Shown here piece by piece: positions 21,772-39,236 of a DNA stretch of 49,675 bases. The translations under genes and the position numbers were made by a program. A model generated the notes under the pieces. It worked only from the letters and a program-made list of their open reading frames with translations. It was not told where the DNA came from and searched no databases. The DNA lies in the NCBI GenBank assembly GCA_012520655.1, contig JAAYNW010000097.1, positions 1 through 49,675 of the forward strand, read 5' to 3'. Each line of letters opens with the position of its first letter. Position 1 is the first letter of the stretch. This DNA is from Clostridiales bacterium. GTDB taxonomy: Bacteria; Bacillota; Clostridia; Lachnospirales; Lachnospiraceae.

Positions 21772-21800
21772 ATAATACGAATTTCTATCTTATGATACAA
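21772..21800 (-). promoter_or_regulatory. Weak possible promoter before pglC
   Basis: On the minus strand TTGTAT (21795-21800) and TATTAT (21772-21777) are 17 bp apart, in the 47-bp gap between the pglE-like gene and pglC. The -10 is 5/6 to consensus but the -35 only 3/6, and there is no TG extension. It could give a minor internal start. Confidence 0.22.
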
Positions 21801-22935: not shown

Positions 22936-22971
22936 TTTCCAAACGCCTCTTTTCCTCATATTAGAAATAAA

Positions 22972-24840
22972 TTAGTCCTTATAGTGATAGGTAGGCACTA
23001 TTTCTTTAACTAACGGCCGAATATCTACGATTTCCTGCTTCGATTCTTCTTTCAATTTTTTAAGCTGGGCAAAAAACTTCATTTCATCCAGTTCTATCGG
23101 CTTACCCACATGAATAAGTTTATTGGCGGTTTCCTTCATACCTTCTTCATCCATAAGAAGTTCTTCATACAGCTTTTCCCCCGGGCGCAAGCCTGTGAAC
23201 TCTATCTTGATATCCTCACCTACGCGATAACCGGATAAACGAATTAGATTCTCCGCCAAATCCAGTATTCTGACAGGTTCTCCCATATCCAGCACGAATA
23301 TTTCCCCGCCTTTCGCATAAGCTCCTGCCTGCAATACTAAAGAAACCGCTTCCGGAATTGTCATGAAGTAACGAATAATATCCGGATGGGTCACCGTTAC
23401 CGGACCACCCTGCATAATCTGCTTTCTGAAAAGGGGAATTACGCTTCCGTTACTTCCCAGCACATTTCCAAAGCGCACCGCAACGAACTCCGTCTCATAA
23501 TGATTATTAAAAGTCTGAATAACCATCTCGCAGATGCGCTTGCTCGCACCCATGATATTCGTAGGGTTTACCGCCTTATCGGTGGAAATCAGCACAAATT
23601 TGTTTACCCCGTAAAAGGCTGCTGCCTGCGCGGTCTTCCAAGTACCGAATACATTATTTTTCACTGCTTCATTAGGGCTGTCCTCCATAAGAGGCACATG
23701 CTTATGCGCTGCCGCATGATAGACGATGTCCGGTTTATAACGTTCAAATATCCAATTGATCCTGTTCGTATTTCGAACGGAAGCGATAAGAACGACAAGA
23801 TCCAAATCGGGATATTTGGTTTTCAGTTCCTGCTGTATATCATATACGCTGTTTTCATAAATATCCAGAATAATAAGTCGCTTCGGCTTATGTCCGGCAA
23901 TCTGCCTGCACAGCTCGCTGCCGATGGAGCCTCCCCCGCCGGTTACGAGTACTGTTTTATTCTGCACATAGCCGAGAATCGAATTGATATCTACACTGAT
24001 AGGATCTCTGCCGAGCAAATCTTCTACCTCTATATCTCTCAGCTTGCTGACATTGACTTCCCCGTTCACCAACTGATACATGCCCGGAAGCGAGCGCAGC
24101 TTACAATTGGTCTCCTTACAGATCTCCAGTATTTTCCTGAGCTCTGCGCGGGAAATGGATGGCATTGCCACGATAATCTCATCAATATCATAAATATCGG
24201 CGCATTCGATAATCTTATCCCTGCCTCCGACTACTTTAATGCCTTGAATATATCTTCCCCATTTTCCTTTATCATCATCGATAATACAACGGATTACCAT
24301 AGTGCTGAAATTGCTGTTCACAATCTCTTTGATAATTACATTTGCCGCCTCTCCGGCACCTATTACCATGACCGATATTCCATTCTTCTTATTCTGCTGT
24401 TTATGCTTCTGGCTTCGCAGAAACCGGTAAGAAAACCGGCTGACAAAAATCATGCTGATCAACACAAACATATATAAGAAATAATAGCTTTTGGGAACCG
24501 GCTGCTGCACAGTCTTAAAAAATTGCAGACCTATGCTGTTCAAAACCGCCGAGATCACACATGACACCACTACATTCTGCAACTCTGTTTCTCCGGCAAA
24601 TGCCCACAAGCTATGGTATAAACGAAAAAAATAAAAAATAAACAGCGTAAGCAATATATTGACCGGGAGAAATCTCGTTATAGGATCGAGAAAGTGAGCC
24701 GGTATCATATCTATATGGAACTCGTAACGAATGAGCACCGCCATATAGCTTGCAAAAATAATACTGATAATATCGTATATAATCAGGCTCGTTCTTCTGT
24801 AGAATAATTTTACATTAAAAGGCTTTTTATCTTTCTTCAT
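22972..24840 (-). CDS. pglF: PglF/CapD-like membrane UDP-GlcNAc 4,6-dehydratase
   Basis: A 622-residue polysaccharide biosynthesis protein. Four N-terminal transmembrane helices (about residues 17-135) are followed by a CoA/NAD-binding-like domain with VIGAGEAA (159-166) and then the dehydratase domain with TGGGGSIGSEL (300-310) and STDKAVNPTNIMGASKR (419-435). Full-length PglF relatives convert UDP-GlcNAc to UDP-4-keto-6-deoxy-GlcNAc without C5 inversion. I favour the ATG at 24840, with AAAGGA 8 bases upstream; 24849 is possible. It overlaps the ligase/polymerase gene by 14 bp. Confidence 0.93.
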   Translation of the reverse strand: MKKDKKPFNVKLFYRRTSLIIYDIISIIFASYMAVLIRYEFHIDMIPAHFLDPITRFLPVNILLTLFIFYFFRLYHSLWAFAGETELQNVVVSCVISAVLNSIGLQFFKTVQQPVPKSYYFLYMFVLISMIFVSRFSYRFLRSQKHKQQNKKNGISVMVIGAGEAANVIIKEIVNSNFSTMVIRCIIDDDKGKWGRYIQGIKVVGGRDKIIECADIYDIDEIIVAMPSISRAELRKILEICKETNCKLRSLPGMYQLVNGEVNVSKLRDIEVEDLLGRDPISVDINSILGYVQNKTVLVTGGGGSIGSELCRQIAGHKPKRLIILDIYENSVYDIQQELKTKYPDLDLVVLIASVRNTNRINWIFERYKPDIVYHAAAHKHVPLMEDSPNEAVKNNVFGTWKTAQAAAFYGVNKFVLISTDKAVNPTNIMGASKRICEMVIQTFNNHYETEFVAVRFGNVLGSNGSVIPLFRKQIMQGGPVTVTHPDIIRYFMTIPEAVSLVLQAGAYAKGGEIFVLDMGEPVRILDLAENLIRLSGYRVGEDIKIEFTGLRPGEKLYEELLMDEEGMKETANKLIHVGKPIELDEMKFFAQLKKLKEESKQEIVDIRPLVKEIVPTYHYKD

Positions 24841-27541
24841 TTGCTTCATCCTTTTTCTTACCCATATCGAATAGCAAAGGGGCTAACACAACAAGCAAGG
24901 TAAATCCTGCCGGATGGCAAAGATGAAATATCCATTCCACAAGTCCCGCCATAGCAAAAGCCACTACAATAGCCACCGGCATCGCGGCACACGCAACGCT
25001 GTTCTTTCTTCTCACGAAGAAAATGCATCCCTGCACAAAGGTTGCCGCTCCCAAAACGATAAATACAATACCTACAAAAATGCCATGGTCGTATGCCACC
25101 TGAAGATAAATATTATGAGCATGAACCGCAAGTGTTCCGTCCGGAAGCAAAGCACCCATCTCATCATGTCCTTTTAGGTTAAGCTGATCCAGATAGGCAC
25201 GGAAAATATCCACACGACCGTTGGCGTACTCCTCCGTTTTCTCGTATACACTCGTCTCTTCTACTATCTCTTCCTGTACTTCTTCCGTTTCCGTAAAATC
25301 AGTTTCTTGCGCGTCTCTCTCTAACTGCGCAGCACGTGCATCGTCCGCTGCCCGCTCTTCATCGGTCTTCGTTCCGATAATATTCAGTTGCTCTCCGCTT
25401 GCGTTTCCGGGTGCTTCTGCGCTTGCATTTCCGTCGTTTTCTTCGGCCTTATATAAATCGTTTATGCCGCCCTCCCATACAACTTCACCGCTGCTGTTGA
25501 ACCTTTTGGCACGGTATTTCTGATATTCTTCGCTTCTTTCATAAGAAGACGTTCCGCTTTCGGGTATTCCGAATATCTTATTGTTGAATACCTCCGCAAA
25601 GCGTTCCACGGTTATATAATACATGGAATCCCATTCATTCCCTCTGGAGATCGCATCGGGAAATACTTCGACTTCATATTTGAATACATCGTTGCACAAC
25701 GCGGGAATAATTCTCTGTCCGGTAAAAATAATAGGAAAGCACCAGATCACAGCCGCCGCCATCAACCCGGACAAGCCTAAGATATTGCCGAACTTCTCCT
25801 TCCCGATACCCTTAGCCGTCATTACCACGGCGACAATAAGCATTACGGCAACAGACATAAAGCCGGTTCTGGATGCCGTAAAAATCATATAAGTACCGGA
25901 GATTCCAAGTATTACAAGCTCTCCCCATATATCTTTTATCTTATGTGACTTTCCATATTTATCCGCTAGCTTCATGAAAGCCGCGCATATAATGAATGTC
26001 AAATATACCGCAGTTACCGTAACCGTATGGAAAACAAAAGGAAATCTGGGATATACCCACGATAAAAACGGCCTGTGCATCAGCGCAAATAAAACAGAGC
26101 AAACGAAATGAAGGATTAACCCATTACAGATGTTTTGCAACAAATGTTCCTTTTTATTCCACAATGCATACCGGATATAAAATAGCGAAAAGGAAATAAC
26201 TAACGCAACTGTCCACCATCTCGTATTTCTGAATGCGATGATGAGTACGAAGAAAAGCCCCAATATCACTCCATACCAGACGGATATTCGGCTCATCCTT
26301 TCTTTCCTTACAAGCATTGTAATGATGCGCGCTATTACTGTTACGGCTACGAATCCGGCAAGCCCCACCGCAAGGACTCCGTACCTTACAGCCTGCAAAT
26401 CAAGTTCGTTCATTGCCAGATAATCTACATAGATGCTACAGTAACGGTATGCCGCCGCCACTGCCGCCACAACGTAAACGAGAGAAATTTTATTGAATAT
26501 TTCTTTCTTTTTACACATAGTAATGATTACTAAAGAAAAAAATATGATAAACTGCCGTTCGGCAATTCGATGGTGAATATCGTAAAGGCCGTTCATATAA
26601 TTACAGCATGCCCACACAGCACCGGCTATAAAAGCTGCCTGAAGATAATCCGACCCATTCTCTTTCAGCTTGTCCCATAACGGAACATGCTTGCTTCTGT
26701 CTCGTTTACAGTTTATTGCATAAAATAACGTCGCGCTGCACAGCAGTGCTCCTATCGTATAAAAAAGGTTATCCGTAAACTGCCCGCTGAAAAAACGGCG
26801 TATACTTACCATGTATAAACTGACTCCCGTCAAGGCTGTCACCAGAATATTGACCGTGTAACGGAAAGCCTTTTCTACGGTAATCAGTTTATCCCGCTTG
26901 GATATGCGGAAATATAACTCCACGGCACCTGCAAGCAACGCAGCTATAATGAGCAGCATGGCATCATAAGCAAAAATCTTGTCCTTGCGAAGCGGAACCA
27001 TATAGTAATATTCTCCGACAATATTATATCCCTGCAGTTCATCGTAATTATAAACCAAACGGCTTACATACTGAGTACCCGCATTTGCTGTCTCCTCAAG
27101 CCCGAACCACACACGGCTACCGTTTTGCCCTTGCAGGAAGAAATAATAATCCCGTCCCACTTCCAAATCCTCGTTTATATAAACGGGGCAGAATCCGGGA
27201 ATATCTATAAACCTTACATCCACTTTCTGTTCAAACATGACCTGCATGTCCGAATCCAGCATACGGAATATAAAAGAATCAACCCTTTGATCCTTATTCC
27301 ATCCGTTATCGAAATCCGCTATATATAAATTGATTGTTCCAAGATGGTTGTATTGCGCGATAAAGCGCTGCAAGAGATAATCTTCCCCTACACTGTCCGA
27401 AGATCCCGCCAGAATCTGATTGCTGACGGAAGGGATCGTCTCGTCCCACATACGGATAGGATAAATCGTTAGCATCGCTAACAAAGTAAACAATAATATT
27501 ACGCTTTGTATCGCACGGCTCTTTTTCACAATTTTATACAT
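24827..27541 (-). CDS. Very large O-antigen ligase/polymerase-like membrane protein
   Basis: A 904-residue multispanning protein of the Wzy/WaaL superfamily. The signature region around GTYMIFTASRTG (about 549-560) and, near the end, HAHNIYLQVAYDHG (807-820) match O-antigen ligase-like proteins, usually 400-500 residues long. Two features enlarge this one: an N-terminal outer domain of about 150 residues (35-185) after the first helix, and an acidic, repeat-poor outer loop of about 200 residues (610-805), rich in Glu, Asp, Asn and Ala, just before the catalytic His motif. It should join or polymerise lipid-linked glycan outside the membrane. GGAGAG precedes the ATG at 27541. It has its own apparent promoter. 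Confidence 0.88.
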   Translation of the reverse strand: MYKIVKKSRAIQSVILLFTLLAMLTIYPIRMWDETIPSVSNQILAGSSDSVGEDYLLQRFIAQYNHLGTINLYIADFDNGWNKDQRVDSFIFRMLDSDMQVMFEQKVDVRFIDIPGFCPVYINEDLEVGRDYYFFLQGQNGSRVWFGLEETANAGTQYVSRLVYNYDELQGYNIVGEYYYMVPLRKDKIFAYDAMLLIIAALLAGAVELYFRISKRDKLITVEKAFRYTVNILVTALTGVSLYMVSIRRFFSGQFTDNLFYTIGALLCSATLFYAINCKRDRSKHVPLWDKLKENGSDYLQAAFIAGAVWACCNYMNGLYDIHHRIAERQFIIFFSLVIITMCKKKEIFNKISLVYVVAAVAAAYRYCSIYVDYLAMNELDLQAVRYGVLAVGLAGFVAVTVIARIITMLVRKERMSRISVWYGVILGLFFVLIIAFRNTRWWTVALVISFSLFYIRYALWNKKEHLLQNICNGLILHFVCSVLFALMHRPFLSWVYPRFPFVFHTVTVTAVYLTFIICAAFMKLADKYGKSHKIKDIWGELVILGISGTYMIFTASRTGFMSVAVMLIVAVVMTAKGIGKEKFGNILGLSGLMAAAVIWCFPIIFTGQRIIPALCNDVFKYEVEVFPDAISRGNEWDSMYYITVERFAEVFNNKIFGIPESGTSSYERSEEYQKYRAKRFNSSGEVVWEGGINDLYKAEENDGNASAEAPGNASGEQLNIIGTKTDEERAADDARAAQLERDAQETDFTETEEVQEEIVEETSVYEKTEEYANGRVDIFRAYLDQLNLKGHDEMGALLPDGTLAVHAHNIYLQVAYDHGIFVGIVFIVLGAATFVQGCIFFVRRKNSVACAAMPVAIVVAFAMAGLVEWIFHLCHPAGFTLLVVLAPLLFDMGKKKDEANEER

Positions 27542-27557
27542 ATAATCTCTCCATCTC

Positions 27558-27589
27558 AAATCAGAAAAACACACACCGGTTTCTGATTT
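27558..27589 (-). other. Leader stem-loop before the ligase/polymerase gene
   Basis: A perfect 10-bp inverted repeat, AAATCAGAAA at 27558-27567 and its complement TTTCTGATTT at 27580-27589, encloses a 12-base loop. In the minus-strand transcript it lies between the predicted start of transcription and the ribosome site of the gene at 24827-27541. It is AT-rich and is not followed by a U-run in the transcript, so it is not a standard terminator. It may stabilise the 5' end or serve as a target for a regulator. Confidence 0.6.
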
Positions 27590-27601: not shown

Positions 27602-27630
27602 AGTATAGCACAGTTACCCTCAGTTTACAA
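27602..27630 (-). promoter_or_regulatory. Sigma-A-like internal promoter with extended -10
   Basis: Minus strand: TTGTAA (27625-27630), a 17-bp spacer ending in TGC, then TATACT (27602-27607). The -10 is 5/6 to TATAAT and has the TGn extension; the -35 is 4/6. The -35 overlaps the last codons of the DUF6020 gene. Transcription would start near 27595, giving a leader of about 54 bases that contains the stem-loop at 27558-27589. It would drive the ligase/polymerase and pgl genes. Confidence 0.55.
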
Positions 27631-29458
27631 GAACCGCCGTCGCCGCCGGCAGCGCGAACCACAAAATCAGTACGTAGCGCGGCAAATAAGTTGGACCTAA
27701 GATTACGGTCAGCAATACGAGCAGTACCATAAAGAAAGGTATGAGTAAATAGTACATCCTTCTATAATAGATATAGCCAAAAGTAAAGGCAAATACCCAA
27801 AAAAGAAATCCGGGCGAAAACAGCATGGATAGAACCGGTACTTTCTGTTGTGTAATCTCAAGAGAAAGGCTCCTGTACCATTCGTTCAAAAACGGGAGTC
27901 TGCTCTCTCTGGTTCCGGGCTGTTCCACCTCATAGCCAAAAAAGGAACTGTCTCCATAGGTAAACGTAAATACCTCGTTTCCTCGGTATACGTCCACAAC
28001 CGTATCCGGATACCAGAAACCATAAGAAGTCATTAGCCATGCATTGACATAAGTAAAAGGATGCTTCATTCCTATCTTCGCCCATAATTTTATATATTTT
28101 CCGGAATCGGCAGCATATGCTTCGTTATCAAACCATATTTTTACCCCGTCCGATACCTTAGGTGTATAGAATCGCAGTGCCTCCTCGGGAAGAATCTCAT
28201 ACAATGTATCCAGGTCTTCTTGCGTAAAACTCTCTTTATCATATTTATAAGCTCTCGCCAGCTGCTGAATCGGCACGGTAAGCATCTCCTGACTGCCGGA
28301 GGGCTCTGCTGAAAGAAGGGTCGCAAGTGCCGTAGAAGCAACGAAGTAAACTACAAAAATGCATCCCAGCAGACCTGTCAGTTTCTTCCGATATCCTTTC
28401 ATATAAAATAAAAGCACCGGCGTCATTACGAGAAAAGCATACACTCCGTTATGTCTGAAGGACATCATAACAAATGTGCATATTCCAAAAAACAGCCTAC
28501 TCTTCCATGAAGCAAAAAAACTTTCCTTCTCCCTTACCATGTCTGTCATAGCAAGAAGCAGCAGAAGCAAAGCAGCCGTAAAGATTCCGTCCTTTGCCGA
28601 ACATAAAGTGAACATAACGATAACCGGGAAAACAGCGAAGTAAATAACGGTTACCGCTCGAAGTATCGGACGTACCCTTCTTTTTTTCATATAATAAACA
28701 ACATACGTAAATACCCCTGCCATAAATAGCATTTGAAGTAAAGTATAAACTGCAATTCCCATGTTATAAGAACCGGTCACTTTATTTACGCCTAAAATAA
28801 TGCCTCCCAACAGAAGCACATGACAAAGAGGATGGTGCGTCGTAAAGTTTCGCGTCTGCACTTGTATGAATTCATCCTGCGCATCATATACAAAAAAACC
28901 CGGGTATACGGCCAAGAATACCGGCAGCCAGCAAAGCAGAAACAGGCTCACCAATAGAACCGCCTGCTTCCTATCTGATAATCCGTTCCATTTATCATAG
29001 GCCCTATGCCATATACTCCCGCTGTTCACAGCTTCTTCTTTCTTAGTGCATTGGCTTCGTCTTATCTGCCAAGCTTCCAACGCTTTCCAGGCGCTGCGTA
29101 TCCAAACCGCGAATATTCCGGTCCATACCGCAACAGATACCCACATTCCGATGTCCTTAAAATTCACATTTGCCGCATAGTCGAGCTGTGCCCCGAAGGC
29201 GATGCACAGAGAAAACAAAAAGGCAAGGAGTCCTGCTGCTACCGTCCCCCTTTTGTCCGCTTTCCACTTCCTAAGCGCACTATAGAGCGCATACGAACAC
29301 CCTCCCCATAGCAATACGCTAAAATAACTATTGCTAATAATAAGACTGTTACCTTTCAAATTCAACATCTGCGGCAGACACCACACCCCAACTAGCGCAA
29401 GTAGTAACGACGCGGCCATAACAGTTCTATTTCGCATACCTATTTCATTCCTCATCAT
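27620..29458 (-). CDS. DUF6020-like multispanning membrane protein (GT-C candidate)
   Basis: A 612-residue integral membrane protein resembling the DUF6020 group of Firmicutes. After several helices, an outer loop carries YDAQDEF (191-197) followed by THHPLCHVLL (207-216), an arrangement of acidic and His residues reminiscent of GT-C enzymes that use polyprenyl-phosphate sugars. A soluble outer segment of about 110 residues (roughly 395-510) precedes the last helices. A role as the extracellular transferase for the UndP-sugar made by the adjacent GNAT-GT2 fusion is inferred. The start is uncertain: 29458 (GGGAAG upstream, overlapping the fusion gene by 14 bp) or 29437. Confidence 0.8.
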   Translation of the reverse strand: MMRNEIGMRNRTVMAASLLLALVGVWCLPQMLNLKGNSLIISNSYFSVLLWGGCSYALYSALRKWKADKRGTVAAGLLAFLFSLCIAFGAQLDYAANVNFKDIGMWVSVAVWTGIFAVWIRSAWKALEAWQIRRSQCTKKEEAVNSGSIWHRAYDKWNGLSDRKQAVLLVSLFLLCWLPVFLAVYPGFFVYDAQDEFIQVQTRNFTTHHPLCHVLLLGGIILGVNKVTGSYNMGIAVYTLLQMLFMAGVFTYVVYYMKKRRVRPILRAVTVIYFAVFPVIVMFTLCSAKDGIFTAALLLLLLAMTDMVREKESFFASWKSRLFFGICTFVMMSFRHNGVYAFLVMTPVLLFYMKGYRKKLTGLLGCIFVVYFVASTALATLLSAEPSGSQEMLTVPIQQLARAYKYDKESFTQEDLDTLYEILPEEALRFYTPKVSDGVKIWFDNEAYAADSGKYIKLWAKIGMKHPFTYVNAWLMTSYGFWYPDTVVDVYRGNEVFTFTYGDSSFFGYEVEQPGTRESRLPFLNEWYRSLSLEITQQKVPVLSMLFSPGFLFWVFAFTFGYIYYRRMYYLLIPFFMVLLVLLTVILGPTYLPRYVLILWFALPAATAVLVN

Positions 29459-30914
29459 TCATGACTTCCCTTATGACAAATTGAGGCGAATTATTCATAG
29501 AAATATACATTCTGCCTATATATTCTCCGATCAGACCTAACATGAGCATAAGCATACCGCCTATAAATACAAGCGCTGACATCATGGAGCTGAAGCCCAT
29601 AGGCACATTGGGATTAACAAACTTCTTAATTATCGTATAGATTCCGTAAATAAATCCCATAGACGCGAGAAAACACCCTATCGCCGTCGCTATTCTAAGC
29701 GGTTTGACGCTGAATGCGGTAAACCCATTAAACCATAATCCTATCAGTTTCCTGAAAGTATAGCCGGAGGTACCAACCTCGCGCTCTCTGTGATGCACAT
29801 TTACATTGCTGATCCTCTTTGTTGTCCGCAGTACTAATCCGATCACATAAGGATAAGCGTTGGTATATCGCTTTATATCCTCTATTACAAAACGTCTTGC
29901 CGCAAAATAACTGGACACATAAATATCCTTAGGTTTGCCGAGCATCATTTCCGTCATCTCTTCATTGAGCCAACTGCCGAAATTGCGGAAGAGGGAATGC
30001 ATTTTATGATCATATTTGGCATATACCACATCGGAGCCCTTTTCTATTTCCGCAAGCAGCTTCCCTGCTTCATTTGCCGGTGTCTGCCCGTCATCATCCA
30101 GACATACAACAACATCGCCCTTTACGTAATGAAATCCTGCCATAAGCGCCGCATGCTGTCCAAAATTCCTTGCCAAATTGATACCCGTAATCTTCTTATT
30201 ATTTTCACATAAATCTCTAATCACATCGAATGTATTGTCCGGAGAACAGTCGTCTACAAGTATAATTTCATAATCATACTTCTTTCCTCCGGCATTTAAC
30301 GCTTCTACCGTCCTTATCACTTCTTCTACAACCTTAGGCAGTGTCTGTTCCGAACGGTAGCAGGGAATTACAAAGCTGACCAACCGGCTATTATCTTTTG
30401 CTATCGACATCAGATACATATCCTTCCTCTCGCCATCCGAGCACTCCACAGCTTTTAGTAAAGACTCCCTTGAAAATCCTGCTTTTTCATAGCTAGCCAC
30501 AGCCGCCGCATTATCCGTAAAGACTCTGAGTATCAGTTTACTGAGCTTAAGCTTCTCAAATGCATATCTTACTGCGAGAAGCGCCGCTTCTGTTCCATAT
30601 CCGTATCCTACCGCATCGTCTTCGCCGATAAAGATGCCGTATTCCGCTTCCCCTTTATCCGTATCCACATCTCGAAAATACACGCTTCCAATAGGACGCA
30701 TATCTTTTTTTATGCAAATAATAAATTGAACGGCTTTCCCTGTTTCAATCATCGACCTTATCCATTTTTTATGGCTTTCCGGCGTAAAATCCTCTCTATA
30801 AATAAAGTGTTTCCTGACTCTTTCATTGTTTCTCCACTTTATAATATAATCCGTATCTTCAAAAGTAATGGGCTTAAGTATTATATTTGATCCCGTTATT
30901 TTCGTCGTCTGCAT
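29445..30914 (-). CDS. GNAT N-acetyltransferase fused to GtrB/ArnC-type GT2
   Basis: A 489-residue two-domain protein. Residues 1-172 form a GNAT domain like PseH and RimJ-type enzymes: KWRNNERVRK (27-36), EYGIFIGE (91-98), the acetyl-CoA loop GYGYGTEA (103-110) and ASYEKAGF (140-147). Residues 176-489 form a GT2 of the GtrB/ArnC type: VIPCYR, DDCSPDNT (221-228), DDDGQTP (273-279) and two C-terminal transmembrane helices (about 405-430 and 442-470). Such GT2 enzymes move a sugar from a nucleotide to undecaprenyl phosphate. Fusion suggests that the sugar is N-acetylated and loaded by one protein. The sugar aminotransferase gene lies two genes upstream. Both domains look intact, and no frameshift is needed. 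Confidence 0.92.
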   Translation of the reverse strand: MQTTKITGSNIILKPITFEDTDYIIKWRNNERVRKHFIYREDFTPESHKKWIRSMIETGKAVQFIICIKKDMRPIGSVYFRDVDTDKGEAEYGIFIGEDDAVGYGYGTEAALLAVRYAFEKLKLSKLILRVFTDNAAAVASYEKAGFSRESLLKAVECSDGERKDMYLMSIAKDNSRLVSFVIPCYRSEQTLPKVVEEVIRTVEALNAGGKKYDYEIILVDDCSPDNTFDVIRDLCENNKKITGINLARNFGQHAALMAGFHYVKGDVVVCLDDDGQTPANEAGKLLAEIEKGSDVVYAKYDHKMHSLFRNFGSWLNEEMTEMMLGKPKDIYVSSYFAARRFVIEDIKRYTNAYPYVIGLVLRTTKRISNVNVHHREREVGTSGYTFRKLIGLWFNGFTAFSVKPLRIATAIGCFLASMGFIYGIYTIIKKFVNPNVPMGFSSMMSALVFIGGMLMLMLGLIGEYIGRMYISMNNSPQFVIREVMNDEE

Positions 30915-30958
30915 GAGATTCCTATGCTCCTTCCCCGCGTAAAAAACTGTCCCTCATA

Positions 30959-32824
30959 TTAATCGGCTATCGTTTCAATTTTATTTTCTTGAATTTTATA
31001 TACGCCGATAATTCCGTTTATTGTATCTACAAGCTTTGCTTCCGCAGGCATGCCCTGCTCCTCATAGTAATCCGTCAAAAAATCCGTACCCTTTTTAAGC
31101 TCCGCCATCATATATACATTATCGCCATATATAAGCTCTTCCTGCATAGAACTCATTCCAAATGCTTTCAGCTTTTTATCGTACAGCGGGCTTTTCGTCA
31201 GCCAGCCGCCCATAATTTCATAATTTGCAATATTATTATTTACATTTTTAAACATCTTTTCTGAATATGGTATGGATGTAACCGGATCCGATACCGAAGA
31301 ATATACATCGAAAAAATAAAAGTTCTCTTTATGAGCGCGGCAATACTCCTTCATCTGCATATCTGTCGTATTCGCTTCCGCCCGCTTCGCATATTCTCTA
31401 TCTACCTCTGCTATACTTGATGAAATAGAGGCCGCCGCAGTTATCGCAAGAACCGCAGGAAAAACTGCCGCTACCTTTACTTTTCCGCAGATTTTCATCT
31501 CGATTGCTGCGCTTTCCGTATGAAGCATTGCCCATAAGATGCATAGCTCAATAAAATACAGGGAATGTGTGACGCGTTCGGGGGAACGTCCTCCCATGAG
31601 AATATACATCCAAAGTACACTTCTTATAAATCCCATAAGTACGAGCTTCCATCCGATTTTCCATATTGCGTTGAACACTTGTCCGTCATATTCGGCTTCA
31701 CTGTTTTTTATGCGGAATGCCTCATTCCATATTCCGGCAATAAAAACAGAAATATACCCAAGTATCACCATAATATTCCATGGGTAATCGTCAGGCTTTT
31801 CAGAGCCTTTCGGCTCTCTGTGCAAAGTTCTGTATTTATATTCTTTCAACTTTTCAACGCAAGTTTCAGTTATAGATTCCGTTTGCTTTTTCTTTTCTGC
31901 CTGGTACTTAGCCATTGCATCCAGTATTCCGGCATCTAACGTATCATCCATTCCAAAATCGTATTCTTCAATCAGCAGATTCTGCTCGACCTGTGTAATT
32001 CCCAGCCTTTCATACAGTTCTTCATTTCCTTCATAAGGCGGAATTCCCTGAAAATCATATAGCTCCGTTCTGCTGTTGAAGAAATCTATGAAGTTCTTCC
32101 AATTCCCTCTACTGTATACAGCGTCGTTCATCGCGTATATTAACACGATTCCCGCCAAAATACTTCCTATAACCCCCAAGTATTTCACTATGTTTTCTCT
32201 CGTAAATACGGACGATTCCATTGACCACCTATATATACCCGCCGCACAAATAAACGGCAGAGCTAAAAGCAGCATTTCCGAGCGTATGCCGAATGCCACT
32301 ATGACCAGAACGATGCTCAACAGATTCTTTCTAATAAACTTTCTACCCGCCGCTTCGTTGTCCGACGTAATGAATAAAAAAGCGGCTGTTCCCGCAAGCA
32401 ATGCGGAAGTGACCGTATACTGTATAAAAATAAAATGCGGAAGAAACAAAACAATTATTATAAGACCTTCCAGCCCTGCCATCAGTAGCTTGGATGCAGT
32501 GTGCTCCCGGAAGCCAACACTCCTTTCTGCAATCAGGAAAAACCCGATAAGCTGACATGCGCACAGAAAGATACCATAAACCGGCGCCTGTGGAAAAATC
32601 CTGTAAAAGAGACTGATTAGCAGGCTCATCGGGTACATCATCTGAATATTCATGCTTTCCGGATCTCCCGTATAGACTCCCGCCAGAATGTCCTTCATTA
32701 CCACATCATCGTTCAGGTCATAGTAATAGTCATACCGCACCGCTGCCAGTATGCCGAGAACTATGATAAGCCCTGCTGCAATTATTATGTTTTCGTATTT
32801 TTTGCAGAAATTTCTAAGCACCAT
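30959..32824 (-). CDS. Multispanning membrane protein, GT-C candidate, function unknown
   Basis: A 621-residue membrane protein of no family I can name. The first helix (about 13-29) is followed by YYDLNDDVVM (34-43), an acidic motif in the first outer loop as in GT-C glycosyltransferases. About ten more helices follow, with a long soluble stretch (about 240-335) and a soluble C-terminal region of about 140 residues ending IGVYKIQ. A comparable hydrophobic-Tyr-Lys ending occurs in the proteins at 33967 and at the right window edge. It overlaps the wecE-like gene by 11 bp. It probably transfers a sugar from a polyprenyl carrier outside the cell. Confidence 0.75.
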   Translation of the reverse strand: MVLRNFCKKYENIIIAAGLIIVLGILAAVRYDYYYDLNDDVVMKDILAGVYTGDPESMNIQMMYPMSLLISLFYRIFPQAPVYGIFLCACQLIGFFLIAERSVGFREHTASKLLMAGLEGLIIIVLFLPHFIFIQYTVTSALLAGTAAFLFITSDNEAAGRKFIRKNLLSIVLVIVAFGIRSEMLLLALPFICAAGIYRWSMESSVFTRENIVKYLGVIGSILAGIVLIYAMNDAVYSRGNWKNFIDFFNSRTELYDFQGIPPYEGNEELYERLGITQVEQNLLIEEYDFGMDDTLDAGILDAMAKYQAEKKKQTESITETCVEKLKEYKYRTLHREPKGSEKPDDYPWNIMVILGYISVFIAGIWNEAFRIKNSEAEYDGQVFNAIWKIGWKLVLMGFIRSVLWMYILMGGRSPERVTHSLYFIELCILWAMLHTESAAIEMKICGKVKVAAVFPAVLAITAAASISSSIAEVDREYAKRAEANTTDMQMKEYCRAHKENFYFFDVYSSVSDPVTSIPYSEKMFKNVNNNIANYEIMGGWLTKSPLYDKKLKAFGMSSMQEELIYGDNVYMMAELKKGTDFLTDYYEEQGMPAEAKLVDTINGIIGVYKIQENKIETIAD

Positions 32825-33944
32825 AAAATTCCTTTACCTTATCGGCAATATAGTCCACTTCCTGTTCCTTGAGTTCGTAGAACATGGGAAGCCTCAACAA
32901 CCTTTCACTCTCTTTCGTCGTATATCTGTCTTCGCCATGGAAACGCCCGAATTTTATTCCTGCCGGGGCCGAATGCAATGGCACATAATGAAATACCGAC
33001 AGAATATCGTTTTTCTTCAGGAAATTGATAAGCTCTGTTCTTTCTTCCATATCTTTCGTTTTTATATAGAACATATGCCCGTTATGGATACATCCTTCAG
33101 GTACATGCGGGAGCTCTATCTTCCCGCTTTCCATGAGGGGAGCCAGTCTGTCATAATATTGCTTCCATCTCTTTAGACGGATATCGTTTATCTCATCCGC
33201 CAGTTCGAGCTGCGCATATAAATATGCCGCGTTCATATCGCTCGGCAGATAAGAAGAACCGTGATTCATCCAACGGTATTTATCTACCTGCCCTCTGAAA
33301 TACTTGCTTCTGTCCGTTCCCTTTTCCCTGAAAATTTCCGCATTTTCAATATATTTTTCATCTCTGATAAGCAAGGCGCCGCCTTCTCCCATACTGTAGT
33401 TCTTCGTCTCGTGGAAGCTGAAGCAGCCGAAATCACCGATTGTTCCCAGGGCCTGTCCTTTATAGGAAGCCATTACTCCTTGCGCAGCATCCTCAACTAC
33501 AATAAGGTTATATTTCTCGGCAACCTCCATGATTTTATCCATTTCACAAGATACTCCCGCATAATGTACGACCGAAACCGCCTTCGTTTTTTCCGTAATG
33601 GCTGCTTCTATCAGGTTCTCATCTATGTTCATCGTATCCGGTCGAATATCCACAAATACAATCTTCGCTCCCCGCAAAACAAAGGCGTCCGCCGTGGAAA
33701 CAAAAGTATACGAGGGCATGATTACCTCGTCTCCTTCTTTTATATCCACAAGAAGCGCCGCCAACTCTAACGCATGTGTACAAGACGTCGTAAGAAGGCA
33801 TTTTTTTGATTTTGTCCGTTCTTCTATCCATTTGCTGCATTTATGCGTGAATTCCCCGTCTCCGCATATTTTCTGATTCTCTACCGCCTGCCTCATATAC
33901 TCCATTTCTTTTCCTGTAAACGGAGGCACATTAAAATTGATCAT
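32814..33944 (-). CDS. wecE: WecE-type dTDP-4-keto-sugar aminotransferase
   Basis: A 376-residue DegT-family PLP enzyme. The N-terminus (INFNVPPFTGKE), TTSCTHALELAA (52-63), VVEDAAQGV and the Schiff-base Lys181 in SFHETKNYSMGEGG are the WecE/RffA pattern. That enzyme aminates dTDP-4-keto-6-deoxyglucose to dTDP-4-amino-4,6-dideoxygalactose, the precursor of Fuc4NAc. The acetyltransferase that would complete Fuc4NAc may be the GNAT domain at 29445-30914. No dTDP-glucose synthesis genes (rmlA, rmlB) are visible, so the keto sugar must come from elsewhere. AAAGGGAGAAAGGG precedes the ATG. Confidence 0.9.
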   Translation of the reverse strand: MINFNVPPFTGKEMEYMRQAVENQKICGDGEFTHKCSKWIEERTKSKKCLLTTSCTHALELAALLVDIKEGDEVIMPSYTFVSTADAFVLRGAKIVFVDIRPDTMNIDENLIEAAITEKTKAVSVVHYAGVSCEMDKIMEVAEKYNLIVVEDAAQGVMASYKGQALGTIGDFGCFSFHETKNYSMGEGGALLIRDEKYIENAEIFREKGTDRSKYFRGQVDKYRWMNHGSSYLPSDMNAAYLYAQLELADEINDIRLKRWKQYYDRLAPLMESGKIELPHVPEGCIHNGHMFYIKTKDMEERTELINFLKKNDILSVFHYVPLHSAPAGIKFGRFHGEDRYTTKESERLLRLPMFYELKEQEVDYIADKVKEFYGA

Positions 33945-33966
33945 AATACCCTTTCTCCCTTTCGAT

Positions 33967-35703
33967 TTATTCTATTGCCCGATATACTTTATAATTTTGG
34001 TTTTCAAAAATGCACCGGTATTTATGTTCTGCAATGAAATCCATTATCAAGTCCGTCTTTTCTCCTGATACGATTTCTTTCCCCGTATCGTTATGAAGAA
34101 TGACTGTCGGCAGAGATGTCAAATCCTCCAGCGCCCGGTTAAGTGCATCGCAGGTATTGCTCGGTATCTCCGGCCAGGTAGTAAAAATCGCCGAGGGAAC
34201 ATCCAAAATATAGCTGAGTCCGGGGGCATCTCCCCAGAAGATTACCGGCTCCTTCCCCATGGCATCTTCTTGCCAGAAGGAGATCAATTCGCCGAGGCTC
34301 TCCGCATTTATGCCTGTCGTATACATTCCTTTCAGCACAAAGCTGTTCTCTACAAGTGAATCACGTTCTTCTCCGTTTATTCCATCCCGGAACACATAAT
34401 TGCACCCGAATAAGACACCTTGGACGAGCGTCATGAGAATTACCGTCGCCGCAAATGCCTGCAGCGGGAAATAAACAGCTCTATCCTTGGTTCTCCCCCA
34501 TATCCGATAACACACCCATAAGGTATACGGCGCAATTAAGAACAGATTATTCATATTCTGATACGTGTAATTATTGCTTCCGATGGGTGTGACCAAAATA
34601 ATGAGAAGCACAATCATAGCCAATATACGCTCCTGTTTATCCCCGGAGCCGGAAACATATCCTCCGATTCCCGCTATACTGCAGATAACAGACAAAATAA
34701 GGAACAGCATCATCCACTGAAAAATGCTTCCCTCATTATAGTAACGTAACGAGAACATTCCCTGTCCCAGATAAAAGCGAAGCAATATCAGAATTCCGAT
34801 GCAGTACAGAAGCTTTTTCAGTTTCTCATAATGTCCCTTTTTAATATAAAACATAATGCTTCCCGCAAATATACATGGAATCATATAGGCGATCCATTTG
34901 AGAGAAGCCGCATATGCGCTGGCGATATCGGAAATCATTCCAATAAGCGTATAATCGGAAGCCTCCTCCGATACTCCTGCCAATCCGCTTATCATACCGG
35001 TAAAGGATTTCATTCCGTATTTCACGGCTATAATAAGAAGAATGCTACCTATTCCCGCAGCGTATCCGCCTAGGCACAGTCCCGTTTTCTTTACAATATC
35101 AATAATTCTATCTTTATTCAGCCATCCCGCAAACCACAGCGCTACGATTAGAGCAGCTTCCGTAAGATTGGGAAAGCGTACCATCACGTTGAGTCCCAGG
35201 CATAATCCCGCCGATATATAATATCTCTTCTTTTCGCTCACGAGTGCCTCATATAGCAAGATGCTTCCCGCCGCAAAAAGAAAATATGTCAAATAATTGT
35301 ATAAAATAGTTGTAGGGCACCAGCATAGGCTAAGAGCTATCATCTCCCCAATGAACGCTATCCACGCTTTCATCCGCCGCTTTGCCGCATAATAGCAAAT
35401 AAGTGCCAACACGCTTAGAAGCATCCCCGTATACAGGTTCATGCCCAAAAGAGTATCTCCAAGCGGCAGCTTCATCAAAAGTGAACCGGTCACATTGGCC
35501 AGATAAGTAGCGAGCACCCACATAGTGTCCATACGATCCATGAATCGATAATAACCTAGAGAATACGTGGTATCCGTAATATCGATCCCCTGATTGACGA
35601 GCAGCAACGGATATAGAAATAATATGAGCGGGAACACTGCTTTTTCCGCTATTATCATATATCGTTTCCCTTTCTCTTCCCAAACCGTAAGAGTTCTCAT
35701 CAT
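33967..35703 (-). CDS. Multispanning membrane protein, GT-C candidate, function unknown
   Basis: A 578-residue membrane protein with about eleven hydrophobic segments. After the first helix, GIDITDTTYSLGYYRF (39-54) places Asp41 and Asp44 in the first outer loop, like GT-C glycosyltransferases. A C-terminal soluble region of about 130 residues (from about 445) includes FWGDAPGLSY and ends YKVYRAIE. No specific family is recognised. It lies 8 bp after the acyltransferase gene with AGGAG before the ATG, and 22 bp before the wecE-like gene. A role in transferring the UndP-linked amino sugar is inferred from context. Confidence 0.75.
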   Translation of the reverse strand: MMRTLTVWEEKGKRYMIIAEKAVFPLILFLYPLLLVNQGIDITDTTYSLGYYRFMDRMDTMWVLATYLANVTGSLLMKLPLGDTLLGMNLYTGMLLSVLALICYYAAKRRMKAWIAFIGEMIALSLCWCPTTILYNYLTYFLFAAGSILLYEALVSEKKRYYISAGLCLGLNVMVRFPNLTEAALIVALWFAGWLNKDRIIDIVKKTGLCLGGYAAGIGSILLIIAVKYGMKSFTGMISGLAGVSEEASDYTLIGMISDIASAYAASLKWIAYMIPCIFAGSIMFYIKKGHYEKLKKLLYCIGILILLRFYLGQGMFSLRYYNEGSIFQWMMLFLILSVICSIAGIGGYVSGSGDKQERILAMIVLLIILVTPIGSNNYTYQNMNNLFLIAPYTLWVCYRIWGRTKDRAVYFPLQAFAATVILMTLVQGVLFGCNYVFRDGINGEERDSLVENSFVLKGMYTTGINAESLGELISFWQEDAMGKEPVIFWGDAPGLSYILDVPSAIFTTWPEIPSNTCDALNRALEDLTSLPTVILHNDTGKEIVSGEKTDLIMDFIAEHKYRCIFENQNYKVYRAIE

Positions 35704-35711
35704 TTCATCTC

Positions 35712-36827
35712 CTATGAAAAGCTGTTGCCAATCTTATCCATCCACAATGCCAATTTAGTTTTGGCCGTATACCTGCCTATAAAGTTAAAAATAACTCTGC
35801 GTATTGCGTCTATAAATATTCCTACAGCATATACGAGAATAACGGACAGCAATAAATGAATTAAAAAACCCAAGGTTCCTGCACTTTCCGCCGGCCCGAT
35901 AAACTCATCGATCCATCCGGACCATTCCGTACGAATATCAATATGTTCATGGAATAAATATACGCCGAACGTAAGCGGCGATATGCCACGTATGATACTT
36001 GCCGCCTTTCCTTCCGGTATATTCACATAGCCAAAGGCATAGAACAATGCGACCGCGGCTGCCAGACATAATATATAATTATAATGAAAAGGCACTTCAA
36101 AATAATAAGCAAATGCCCCTGTTTTCCGATTAATAAAGTAAAAGCCGCATACTATCGCAAATATAGCTAACGCGCAGCCTACGTAGACAAGCCATGCGCA
36201 TCTCCCCGTGGAAAATGTCTTAAGCCCATACAGCCTGATATAAGCTGCCAGGAGATAGACACATAAAAACCACCCGAAATCATAACCGAACCGGTCCGTA
36301 ACTAATTGCACCGGAACAATGCTTTTTATCCCGCAAAAGAAGATGAGAAGCCCGGCAAGAGTAATCTGCAGCTGTCTCTTATTCATGTTTTTCACTGCAA
36401 GGTTAAGCACCGGCGTAAATAGATATAAGATAACATAAGAAGTCGCAAACCAGTAATGTTCTGTTCCTATGGGAAAAATATATCGTATCCACTCATAAAT
36501 GCCGCCGTCGCTGATATCCACCGCTCCGCTTCCCAGCATAACGAGCGGAATGATCATCGCATAGAATAAAACCTGACAAATAAGAATCAGCACTCTCTTT
36601 ATCTTGAATCCCGCTTCCACAAGAAAATAACCGCTGATCAGCACATATACGTTGACAGCAACAATGCAGAAGGATTCCAGGAGAGTTCCTATGATTCTTT
36701 TCGCATCCGCACTTCCCCCCAAGACGAGCAATGCTCCTGTATGGTTCAAATAATGCAGCGTAACCACCATAAGCATTGCGATAATTCTCAATAATTCATA
36801 ATTTGCCTGACGTTTTGACTTCGCCAT
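35712..36827 (-). CDS. Acyltransferase family 3 membrane protein
   Basis: A 371-residue acyltransferase-3 (OafA/WecH-type) protein with about ten transmembrane helices. The N-terminal YELLRIIAMLMVVTLHY carries the conserved, essential His25, and LFHEHI near the end is also typical. Such proteins O-acetylate surface sugars, usually by passing an acyl group across the membrane. It may work with the SGNH-like protein at 4320, since OafA-type acyltransferases often need an SGNH partner domain. The start at 36827 has GGGGAG 6 bases upstream; an in-frame start at 36866 falls inside the gtrA gene. Confidence 0.9.
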   Translation of the reverse strand: MAKSKRQANYELLRIIAMLMVVTLHYLNHTGALLVLGGSADAKRIIGTLLESFCIVAVNVYVLISGYFLVEAGFKIKRVLILICQVLFYAMIIPLVMLGSGAVDISDGGIYEWIRYIFPIGTEHYWFATSYVILYLFTPVLNLAVKNMNKRQLQITLAGLLIFFCGIKSIVPVQLVTDRFGYDFGWFLCVYLLAAYIRLYGLKTFSTGRCAWLVYVGCALAIFAIVCGFYFINRKTGAFAYYFEVPFHYNYILCLAAAVALFYAFGYVNIPEGKAASIIRGISPLTFGVYLFHEHIDIRTEWSGWIDEFIGPAESAGTLGFLIHLLLSVILVYAVGIFIDAIRRVIFNFIGRYTAKTKLALWMDKIGNSFS

Positions 36828-36838
36828 ATACAACTCCC

Positions 36839-37279
36839 CTAAGCTTCCTTTTTTCTGAATACCCAAAGCTTACTGAAAAGATAATTAGTAATAATCACTA
36901 TTACATTACATATGAATTTGGAAATAACATCATCGATGTCGATTACATCTACCATAACATACATAAGGACGAGTTCCATAAGTCCCGTTACGACTCTGGC
37001 GCTGATGAAGGACAAAAACTCTTTATAAACGCCGATCTTCTCCTTGACCTTGCTCTTAAACACAAAAGCACGGTTTGTCCAGTACGCGAAAAGAACGGCC
37101 GTAACCCAAGCGAAAGCCGTCGCTGCAAGTACGAGGATAACCTTATCGTTATCAGCGCCGAGCACCTTGGCCGCCGCCGCGTAGGCTATCATATTTACAA
37201 GAAATGCAAGAAAACCAAAGAATAAGTAGTTCACGGCCTCCTCATATTTCTTGTACATGGTAATAACAAATTCTATCAT
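36839..37279 (-). CDS. gtrA: GtrA family membrane protein
   Basis: A 146-residue protein with four transmembrane helices (about 18-38, 45-68, 90-110, 120-138) and the GtrA-type features YLFFGFLAFLVN, YWTNRAFVF and a final NYLFSKLWVFRKK. GtrA proteins are thought to flip polyprenyl-phosphate-linked monosaccharides across the membrane for use by GT-C enzymes outside. The GtrB-like partner is the GNAT-GT2 fusion at 29445-30914, and the GT-C candidates lie between them. AGGAAGAACCG precedes the ATG. It follows the ABC transporter by 53 bp, with no terminator seen. Confidence 0.92.
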   Translation of the reverse strand: MIEFVITMYKKYEEAVNYLFFGFLAFLVNMIAYAAAAKVLGADNDKVILVLAATAFAWVTAVLFAYWTNRAFVFKSKVKEKIGVYKEFLSFISARVVTGLMELVLMYVMVDVIDIDDVISKFICNVIVIITNYLFSKLWVFRKKEA

Positions 37280-37332: not shown

Positions 37333-39084
37333 TTACCGTTCTCTCAATACTTGTCCGTTTTCCACGCGATATACAATATCACATTTTTCAATTGTCTGTA
37401 ATCTGTGTGCGATAATAATCAGTGTTTTCCTACCGTGCAGGCGATTAATGGAATCCATAATCGCCGCTTCCGTATCGTTATCCAGAGCCGAGGTCGCCTC
37501 ATCGAGTACCAACACCTCGGGATCTTCAAACAGCGCTCGCGCGATGCCGATGCGCTGTCTTTGTCCCCCCGACAGGCGGATTCCTCTTTCCCCGATACCT
37601 GTATCGAGTCCCTCCGGAAGCCCTCTCACGAACTCATCGAGTTGAGCCTCTTTCAGTGCCTGCCATACTTTATTATCGTCGATATCATCATCCGCATAAC
37701 CGAAAGCAACGTTTTTGCGAATCGTAGAATCAATCATGAAAATGGTCTGAGGAATATAACCGATATTTTTCAACCATGACTCATAATGGTCTCTTACTTC
37801 CGTCCCGTCCGCTAATATTTCACCCGATTGCAATCGCAAAAGTCCCAGCATAATATCCACTACTGTCGTTTTACCCGCTCCGGAAGTTCCCACAATACCG
37901 ACAGATTTACCTACCGGAATGCTCATCGTGGCATTATCAAAGATGAGTGTATCCGTATTCGGATACTTATAAGTGATATTTTTCAGAAGAATCTCCTTCG
38001 TAACCGGAAGCTTCTCTATATTTCGCTTCTTCTTATAGGCTTCTTCACTATAATTAATATTCTCATCCCTTATTTCTTCCTGCAGATTATCCGTCACACC
38101 CATGAAGAACGGTTCAAAATAAGCAATGGAAGTCAGATAATTATTAATCCGATTAGCGCTCGGTATAAGTCGCATCGCCGCCATTGCAAGCGTCATAAGC
38201 TGAGGCATAATGGAGGTGACCGCAGTTCCACCCGCTATCTTCAGCATCATATAAAGAACCATGCCTGCAATCGCTACTGTTTCTATCAAAAGCCTAGGCG
38301 TAGCGTTGAATATATTATAACGCTGTACGGCATTTACATACCCGGCACCGCAGGAGGAGTATTCATTGATAAAATAATTCTCTTTATTGGCTACTTTAAT
38401 TTCCTTGATTCCCATGACCGATTGTTCGATCCATTTATACAAGCCGCTGTAATAATCCTGATTCTCCTCGCCGGCTTTGCGCATAATCGGCTTTAAAATG
38501 CCTTTGATGACAAGAAGTACGACAACTAATAACGTAGAAACAGTTACCGTCATCATTACATCCGATTTCAGGCAAACGATTGTCAGGCAAACGAATACGA
38601 TAAGCTCGCTAAAAAGCTGTAAGAGGCTCAAGATCAGTCCATACATATTATTGACATCAGAAGTAATGCTTCTCTGGATTACCGAAGTATCGGCATTCAA
38701 ATAATATTCATACGGACGTTTCATAAAATTGATCATCATTCTTCTCGAAGTCGCGAATTGATTGCTGTATACAAACTTCAGCTGTACCTTATTCTGAAAA
38801 AACAAGTAGGCATTTTTCACTGCAAATACAGCAATTAAAGCTCCCATAACGACCAATGTAAACTGAGTAACGCTCTGCATATGAAGCATATCGTATACCA
38901 TCGACAGGCTTTCGCTCTTCTCTATTGCGCGGGGATCCGTAATTACCTCTGCAACAGGATAAATCATACCGATTCCGAGCGTCTCGAGCATTGCTCCTAT
39001 CAGCATGACGAATACAAGACCGACCATCTTTTCTTTCTGTTTTCTATCTAATAACACATTTAATTTTGCCAGTATTTTTCCCAT
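37333..39084 (-). CDS. PglK/MsbA-like ABC transporter, permease-ATPase fusion
   Basis: A 583-residue half-transporter: six hydrophobic helices (about 20-310), then an ATPase domain with Walker A GTSGAGKT (399-406), LSGGQ (504-508) and Walker B VLVLDE (524-529). It resembles PglK, which flips lipid-linked oligosaccharide to the outer face, as judged by the short basic N-terminus and LIGAMLETLGIG in helix 1. It is a paralog of the truncated protein at the left edge. The start is uncertain: 39084 gives the best alignment with the paralog (GAGG 11 bases upstream); in-frame ATG and GTG codons at 39120 and 39129 would lengthen it. It has its own apparent promoter. Confidence 0.93.
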   Translation of the reverse strand: MGKILAKLNVLLDRKQKEKMVGLVFVMLIGAMLETLGIGMIYPVAEVITDPRAIEKSESLSMVYDMLHMQSVTQFTLVVMGALIAVFAVKNAYLFFQNKVQLKFVYSNQFATSRRMMINFMKRPYEYYLNADTSVIQRSITSDVNNMYGLILSLLQLFSELIVFVCLTIVCLKSDVMMTVTVSTLLVVVLLVIKGILKPIMRKAGEENQDYYSGLYKWIEQSVMGIKEIKVANKENYFINEYSSCGAGYVNAVQRYNIFNATPRLLIETVAIAGMVLYMMLKIAGGTAVTSIMPQLMTLAMAAMRLIPSANRINNYLTSIAYFEPFFMGVTDNLQEEIRDENINYSEEAYKKKRNIEKLPVTKEILLKNITYKYPNTDTLIFDNATMSIPVGKSVGIVGTSGAGKTTVVDIMLGLLRLQSGEILADGTEVRDHYESWLKNIGYIPQTIFMIDSTIRKNVAFGYADDDIDDNKVWQALKEAQLDEFVRGLPEGLDTGIGERGIRLSGGQRQRIGIARALFEDPEVLVLDEATSALDNDTEAAIMDSINRLHGRKTLIIIAHRLQTIEKCDIVYRVENGQVLRER

Positions 39085-39236
39085 CCGGTGTCTTACCTCT
39101 GCCTGTTTTTCCTTACGCATCCTGCCCACTTCTTTTTATCTGCGCAGGAATATCTTTATATTTTAACATACTTGCTTATATGATTGCAAATCTTCGGTGT
39201 TATGGACCATCAGCGTTTCATATTCCACATTTTCTC
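39085..39236 (-). other. Intergenic region between GT52-like and ABC transporter genes
   Basis: At 152 bp this is the longest gap in the window. It holds the promoter at 39160-39189, and a stem TCCTGC/GCAGGA with an 18-base loop just downstream of the predicted transcription start, including an 8-bp palindrome CTGCGCAG. No factor-independent terminator (GC-rich hairpin plus U-run) for the upstream pse genes is visible. Confidence 0.5.
39160..39189 (-). promoter_or_regulatory. Sigma-A-like internal promoter before the ABC transporter
   Basis: Minus strand: TTGCAA (39184-39189), an 18-bp spacer ending in TGT, then TAAAAT (39160-39165). The -10 is 5/6 to consensus with a TGn extension; the -35 is 5/6 if the central CA/AC positions are read leniently, 4/6 strictly. 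Spacing is 1 bp longer than optimal. It would drive the flippase and the GtrA module. Confidence 0.45.

Follow-up and report, generated by a model that had tools for sequence, protein, structure and literature searches.

We analysed a stretch of DNA of 49,675 nucleotides (the window), which is one contig (GenBank JAAYNW010000097.1) of a genome assembled into 97 contigs (2.85 Mb, completeness 94.6%); the source bacterium probably belongs to the family Lachnospiraceae. On the minus strand, the list of open reading frames (ORFs) has seven at 27620-37279, which a preliminary description had taken for a module that makes, flips and transfers an amino sugar linked to undecaprenyl phosphate (UndP). 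Both the run of seven genes and the naming of its parts were borne out by the ORFs and by Pfam and NCBIfam. In the order of transcription, the genes are the following, where GT-C stands for the C-type fold of glycosyltransferases (GTs), dTDP for deoxythymidine diphosphate and Fuc4N for 4-amino-4,6-dideoxygalactose:

36839..37279, minus strand: small membrane protein of the GtrA type, putative flippase of the UndP-linked sugar (PF04138, 73.6 bits, cut-off 26.1)
35712..36866, minus strand: Acyl_transf_3 membrane protein (Acyl3), putatively O-acylating the transferred sugar (PF01757, 78.1 bits)
33967..35703, minus strand: memA, 578 amino acids (aa), predicted transferase of the GT-C fold whose C-terminal part is soluble (AlphaFold model and PDB fold matches)
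32814..33944, minus strand: WecE, dTDP-4-keto-6-deoxyglucose aminotransferase giving dTDP-Fuc4N (NF008687, TIGR02379)
30959..32824, minus strand: memB, 621 aa, predicted GT-C-fold membrane protein (AlphaFold model and PDB fold matches)
29445..30914, minus strand: GNAT-GtrB fusion, 489 aa (PF13302 and PF00535, NCBIfam, PDB)
27620..29458, minus strand: DUF6020 polytopic membrane protein, candidate third transferase (PF19484, 136.7 bits)

WecE and memB overlap by 11 bases, and the fusion and DUF6020 by 14. The Acyl_transf_3 ORF begins with TTG, and an ATG 39 bases downstream is an equally likely start. No family match was found for memA and memB in the Pfam scan.

The fusion consists of a GNAT N-acetyltransferase (residues 1 to about 170) and an UndP-sugar synthase of the ArnC/GtrB type (about 177 to 487). 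The GtrB half matched PF00535 with 109.4 bits and has two C-terminal hydrophobic segments (408-426 and 444-462). ArnC was both its best curated match and its best PDB match, and its score against the ArnC model PRK10714 was 191.3 bits, below the NCBIfam cut-off of 529. The PDB matches to ArnC (9hwj, 8.4e-48) and to GtrB sll0501 (5ekp, 9.7e-36) extended over the full GtrB domain. Comparison of the fusion protein with genome contigs yielded 434 relatives. The 80 best were retained; these loci were chosen for GNAT and GtrB, so that both are present in all of them by selection. According to the database labels, 65 of the 80 were Lachnospiraceae and 1 Muribaculaceae, the remainder being other or unplaced bacteria, and the nearest named relative at the locus was Kineothrix alysoides (81% identity in the best fusion segment). 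GNAT and GtrB were encoded by a single ORF in 17 of the 80. In a GtrB-domain tree, built by a quick method with no bootstrap and counting gains and losses alike as label changes, the fused label changed 5 times, at least 4 of these changes being forced by well supported branches, and the fusion of the window fell inside a clade of 12 rows that were all fused (support 98). Two other genomes of the sample described below (G207 and G037) aligned to the fusion over nearly its full length, with one internal stop. Since the fused state was found in several separate lineages, the activities of GNAT and GtrB most likely belong to one pathway. Our results support the proposal that the GNAT works with GtrB.

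The WecE gene scored 644.5 bits against NF008687 (cut-off 375) and 643.7 bits against TIGR02379 (cut-off 434.85), while its scores against the models of other aminotransferases all stayed under the cut-offs: 120 bits for DesI (cut-off 650), which is another dTDP-4-keto-6-deoxyglucose aminotransferase, 177.9 bits for ArnB (cut-off 631) and 200 bits for PseC. Because it was the WecE model that matched, the galacto form of the sugar is predicted. RmlB and RmlA were found side by side on contig C50 of the same genome (13714-14736, 489 bits, and 15031-15885, 494 bits, respectively). WecF (PF07429) had no match in this genome, and a match in 2 of the 23 genomes tested. The distribution of these genes was then investigated in 249 other genomes of the family, with one genome per genus. 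Proteins that scored 225 bits or more against the window protein were counted as the GtrB class and those with 400 bits or more as the close class; per genome, at most 6 candidates were scored for GtrB and at most 7 for WecE, so absences are soft. The GtrB class was present in 71 of the 249 genomes. WecE was found in 66 of these 71, versus 14 of the 178 genomes without the GtrB class (Fisher p 7e-40, with no correction for relatedness); its background rate was 81 of 250 genomes, the source genome included. The two genes of the 66 GtrB-WecE pairs were on one contig in 50 cases, within 10 kb in 42 and within 60 bases in 6. Among the 80 loci, WecE was present in the flank of 58 and elsewhere in the genome in 20 of the other 22, that is in 78 of 80, the exceptions (L098 and L109) being on contigs of 3.6 and 6.6 kb. 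From this co-occurrence and adjacency, the presence of RmlA and RmlB and the absence of WecF, the most likely substrate of the GtrB half is dTDP-Fuc4N, either as such or N-acetylated. An UndP-linked donor of the Fuc4N(Ac) type is well supported, and the same co-occurrence and adjacency support the proposed link between the GtrB-type synthase and the product of WecE.

The gene neighbourhoods were compared in flanks of up to 10 kb with family profiles built from the 80 loci. These flanks often ended at contig edges, and the outer genes are therefore undercounted. We found the core of memA, WecE, memB, GNAT and GtrB on one strand in 47 loci and all seven genes of the module in 27; such a comparison had been suggested in the preliminary description, and the co-occurrence was confirmed in these shares of the 80 selected loci. 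Beside the 47 cores, the acyltransferase-3 gene was present in 46, a Wzy-like gene in 43, a PglK-like gene in 34, DUF6020 in 33 and GtrA in 27, and in all 47 the listed genes had the same orientation. The ten-gene order PglK, GtrA, Acyl3, memA, WecE, memB, GNAT, GtrB, DUF6020, Wzy was found in 23 loci. The gene set is a real unit inside a conserved glycan locus, beyond chance; its firm core is Acyl3-memA-WecE-memB-GNAT-GtrB, and GtrA and DUF6020 are frequent extras.

The structures of memA and memB were modelled with AlphaFold from 33 and 35 sequences, and the models had mean predicted local distance difference test scores (pLDDT) of 91.1 and 90.9, respectively, and a predicted template modelling score (pTM) of 0.90 each. 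All 8 PDB matches of memA at E of 0.001 or lower were GT-C proteins (the oligosaccharyltransferase (OST) OST-A, ArnT, AglB in four entries, AftA and yeast OST), the best at 1.8e-5 and ArnT second at 8.1e-5. The best match of memB was ArnT with undecaprenyl phosphate (5f15, 6.2e-4), and the first 8 rows were all GT-C. GT-C enzymes are expected to carry acidic residues shortly after helix 1. In the alignments, D41 and D44 of memA, in the loop that follows this helix, are invariant, as are D32, N38, D39 and D40 of memB just behind it. The models thus support GT-C folds for memA and memB; a GT-C fold among the membrane proteins had been named beforehand as a check, and both proteins modelled show it. 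Neither protein matched the ArnT sequence family in Pfam or NCBIfam, so their resemblance to ArnT is one of fold, and a sequence-profile search of the PDB with memA gave no match. Apart from two weak matches that were left out of the count (G013 and G144), memA was found in another 28 sampled genomes, 26 of which carry the close GtrB class, which ties memA tightly to the GtrB donor. Acyl3 and memA formed a single ORF of 932-1034 aa in 7 of the 47 core loci (L092, L095, L096, L097, L101, L102 and L103), and the acyltransferase is therefore tied to the memA transferase.

The DUF6020 protein is a candidate for a third transferase. All 30 aligned members matched PF19484, and a simple scan gave 12 hydrophobic segments, some of them overlapping, with an invariant D192. 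A sequence-profile search of the PDB returned nothing at E of 10 or lower, and the Pfam scans of the alignment members of memA, memB and DUF6020 showed no consistent GT-C family. DUF6020 may belong with the GT-C families. In two loci that have no WecE in the flank, an ORF without a Pfam match lies after the GNAT-GtrB pair (560 aa at L049:11463-13145 and 526 aa at L060:5274-6854); these ORFs may form yet another family of transferases that use this donor.

The module lies between genes that point to a glycan linked to undecaprenyl diphosphate (UndPP):

37333..39129, minus strand: PglK/MsbA-like ABC transporter (NF050066 PglK, 353.7 bits, below the cut-off of 1000), likely the flippase of the UndPP-linked glycan
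24827..27574, minus strand: Wzy/ligase-like membrane protein (Wzy_C, 25.7 bits, below the cut-off of 31.7)
21071..24849, minus strand: PglF-like dehydratase, LegC-like aminotransferase and phosphoglycosyl transferase (none above its NCBIfam cut-off), likely the start of the UndPP-linked acceptor glycan

The module is preceded by the PglK-like transporter and followed by the Wzy-like gene and then by the PglF-like, aminotransferase and phosphoglycosyl transferase genes, an order common to many relatives. Of the possible acceptors, the UndPP-linked glycan that these flanking genes would make is the likeliest; it may end up as a polysaccharide or on a protein. As for a flagellin acceptor, the scans, which covered a part of the neighbouring ORFs, named no flagellar or Maf gene.

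Other parts of the window also belong to a dense glycan island. A DUF2334/deacetylase-like gene, a gene for a protein with a formyltransferase C-terminal domain and an epimerase gene stand in a row at 13627-16301 and are possibly a second branch, for an N-formyl amino sugar. Two asparagine-synthase-like genes and a UDP-glucose/GDP-mannose dehydrogenase gene (2432-4306, 6528-8432 and 17671-19002) occur among glycosyltransferases and may make amidated uronic acids. Four ORFs of 231, 358, 251 and 466 aa (48972-49667, 4320-5396, 8479-9234 and 16283-17683) had no Pfam match at the thresholds used.

Considering these genes together, we think it likely that the module is a pathway of the three-component type for a 4-amino-4,6-dideoxyhexose, similar in its logic to the arn pathway, with the following full scheme. 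RmlA and RmlB, encoded elsewhere, would make dTDP-4-keto-6-deoxyglucose, which WecE would aminate to dTDP-Fuc4N. The GNAT domain would then N-acetylate the nucleotide-linked sugar, and in the order that we infer the fused GtrB domain would load the product onto undecaprenyl phosphate only afterwards, at the inner face of the membrane. GtrA, adjacent or encoded elsewhere, would move the UndP-linked N-acetyl form (UndP-Fuc4NAc) outwards. There, memA, memB and perhaps DUF6020 would divide among them the transfer of the sugar to a glycan that is exported and assembled by the PglK-like transporter and the Wzy-like protein, and the acyltransferase would O-acylate the product.

Several observations weigh against this reading. 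WecE was missing in 5 of the 71 GtrB-class genomes (G040, G108, G233, G235 and G240), and the GtrB class was missing in 14 of the 80 WecE genomes. A GNAT adjoined GtrB in 21 of the 30 close-class genomes and in none of the 41 genomes at 225-400 bits, among the matches listed; acetylation by a GNAT gene is thus not universal. The TM-scores on the query were modest for memA (0.42-0.48) and lower for memB (0.24-0.40), which had one PDB match at E of 0.001 or lower, and profile comparison revealed no clear sequence kinship between memA and memB or between memA and DUF6020. No GtrA adjoined the core in 20 of the 47 loci; it was present somewhere in the genome in all 23 memA-bearing genomes tested, out of 29 in the sample. 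The module had been called self-contained, which it is not, because the substrate of WecE must come from RmlA and RmlB on another contig and because of these cores with no adjacent GtrA.

Three further points of this kind concern the GNAT half and the pseudaminic acid (Pse) genes upstream of the module:

41552..48836, minus strand: PseI, PseF, PseG, PseC and PseB, with a GT2 gene and a DegT-like gene among them (the five Pse proteins over their NCBIfam cut-offs, the other two by Pfam)

PseH is the closest curated model of the GNAT half, which scored 86-88.9 bits against a cut-off of 93.1; this half is the sole stretch of the genome with a PseH-like score near the cut-off (the next one has 32.3 bits); and PseI was present in 20 of the 21 genomes in which a GNAT adjoins GtrB, as was WecE. 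The curated models found no PseH in the upstream cluster itself. The GNAT might accordingly be the PseH that the neighbouring pseudaminic acid pathway lacks, its fusion to GtrB being incidental and GtrB loading a free amino sugar or another sugar. The PseH test is weak evidence because the GNAT score lies so close to the cut-off, and the co-occurrence of the GNAT cannot decide alone since PseI and WecE are equally frequent. However, PseI is a feature of the close GtrB class as a whole (27 of 30 genomes) and does not single out the GNAT, and in the wider class at 225-400 bits WecE was found in 37 of 41 genomes and PseI in 7 of 41. Besides, the Pse loci of other genomes have candidates of their own for the PseH step. 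We inspected 20 PseI regions, 17 of which came from genomes with a GNAT beside GtrB (all except G004, G188 and G206; three genomes with such a GNAT, G045, G060 and G235, were outside this inspection). A candidate was present in 14 of the 17: a GNAT in 4, matched by the PseH model beside PseI in G135, G022 and G198 and by BLAST in G208, a separate, additional GNAT fused to PseG in 2 (G196 and G187), a MaoC-hexapeptide protein in 1 (G184) and an ATP-grasp gene in 7 (G107, G003, G156, G100, G213, G207 and G236; by BLAST to the two of the window, some at 23-28% identity). Nothing was recognised in G037 and G120, where some ORFs were scanned, or in G190, where none were. The window has an ATP-grasp gene at its own Pse locus as well. 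Together with the single ORFs that the GNAT forms with GtrB, these loci make it improbable that the GNAT is the missing PseH.

The ATP-grasp gene next to PseI in the window (LAL_C2, 40316-41536) may perform a PseH-type step. In G100 and G213, a gene for a pyridoxal phosphate-dependent decarboxylase is located near the ATP-grasp gene of the PseI region. The occurrence of a GNAT, a GNAT-PseG, a MaoC-hexapeptide or an ATP-grasp protein at one and the same place suggests varied N-acyl groups. A flagellin-modification operon of Shewanella likewise holds an ATP-grasp gene and, in the part of the article that describes it, no clear orthologues of PseH, PseG, PseI and PseF (PMC3765264). A second ATP-grasp gene of the window (20091-21074) adjoins the PglF-like, LegC-like and phosphoglycosyl transferase genes (20091-24849), with no acetyltransferase among them; ATP-grasp ligases may thus replace 4-N-acetyltransferases twice in this island.

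Fuc4NAc could instead be added in the cytosol by an ordinary glycosyltransferase of the cluster, with GtrB loading a common sugar such as glucose (Glc) or N-acetylglucosamine (GlcNAc), as in teichoic acid systems. Many glycosyltransferases of the cytosolic type are encoded in the window, and the characterised Gram-positive systems covered in PMC8035078 use Glc, galactose (Gal) or GlcNAc. Nevertheless, the GtrB class closely tracks WecE and is often near it, its nearest curated relative ArnC is an amino-sugar enzyme, and the genome has no WecF match, so that we regard this explanation as slightly less probable still than the preceding one. Least probable of all is that memA and memB are oligosaccharyltransferases or polymerase-like enzymes acting on an UndPP-linked glycan rather than UndP-sugar transferases: the best PDB match of memA is a chain of an OST complex, AglB and PglB are near and a Wzy-like gene adjoins the module, but ArnT bound to undecaprenyl phosphate is the first match of memB and the second of memA, and memA goes with the close GtrB class.

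Returning to the Arn-like pathway as the preferred reading, its extension to the family at large is evenly balanced in our judgement: many Lachnospiraceae genera may have a dedicated UndP-Fuc4NAc pathway acting outside the membrane, with fusions of N-acetylation to lipid loading in several lineages and of O-acylation to a GT-C transferase in others, and with two to three GT-C families, showing no detectable sequence relationship, that serve one donor and one glycan. If so, Fuc4NAc would be added in a large bacterial group by a route quite different from that of the enterobacterial common antigen (ECA), a donor specificity would be given for a whole ArnC/GtrB subfamily (the 71 genomes of the sample, each of a different genus), and two transferase families without a Pfam model would gain a role. 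A natural fusion of an acetyltransferase to an UndP synthase would also be useful for making lipid-linked amino sugars. In the open-access literature searched, no description was found of an UndP-Fuc4NAc donor or of this combination of sugar and genes, and none of DUF6020.

Among known systems, the arn pathway, which puts 4-amino-4-deoxy-L-arabinose (L-Ara4N) on lipid A by means of ArnB, ArnA, ArnC, ArnD, ArnE/F and ArnT, carries its own sugar synthesis and follows the logic of an aminotransferase, N-acylation, ArnC-type loading, a flippase and a GT-C enzyme. The module would resemble it in having a DegT-family aminotransferase, N-acylation before lipid loading, an ArnC-type transfer to UndP, a small-protein flippase and a GT-C transferase. 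In contrast to the arn pathway, it has WecE instead of ArnB, a predicted N-acetyl instead of an N-formyl group and GtrA instead of ArnE/F, its acyltransferase (GNAT) is fused to the UndP synthase, two or three transferases take the place of one of the ArnT family, and its setting is a locus of the polysaccharide type in a genome like those of Lachnospiraceae. As far as sequence models tell, the module is not a member of the arn pathway, for its scores were below the ArnB and ArnC cut-offs and the ArnT family had no match. With the pathway of ECA (WecE, WecD and WecF), it shares the dTDP-Fuc4NAc precursor, in keeping with a WecE score far above the cut-off. The ECA pathway, a route of enteric bacteria, adds Fuc4NAc in the cytosol by WecF, whereas the genome has no WecF match and the sugar is predicted to go via UndP.

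Like GtrA/GtrB/Gtr, CsbB/GtcA/YfhO and GtsABC, the module has an UndP-sugar synthase of the GT-A kind, a flippase of the GtrA family and a GT-C transferase. It thus has all three features of gene content that the three-component systems reviewed in PMC8035078 share; the small membrane protein is there by PF04138, and the GT-C fold is clear in memA and less strong in memB. For the multi-component systems in Table 1 of that review, the added sugar is Glc, Gal, GlcNAc or unknown, and the passages on them name no sugar synthesis of their own, whereas the module has its amino-sugar branch built in. Such a branch had been put forward as a mark that sets the module apart from known systems, which does not hold in general: the pentofuranose systems (Citrobacter youngae O1/O2, GT136) carry sugar-making genes among the candidate systems in the part of PMC11127046 that deals with them, and likewise make a three-component addition outside the membrane. 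They differ from the module in their pentofuranose donor, their MATE-family flippase and their GT136 transferase. The kind of pathway is therefore known, since the arn logic, the three-component features and the sugar-making genes of the pentofuranose systems have all been described, and what is new here is its parts, namely the sugar branch, the GNAT-GtrB fusion and two unnamed GT-C families.

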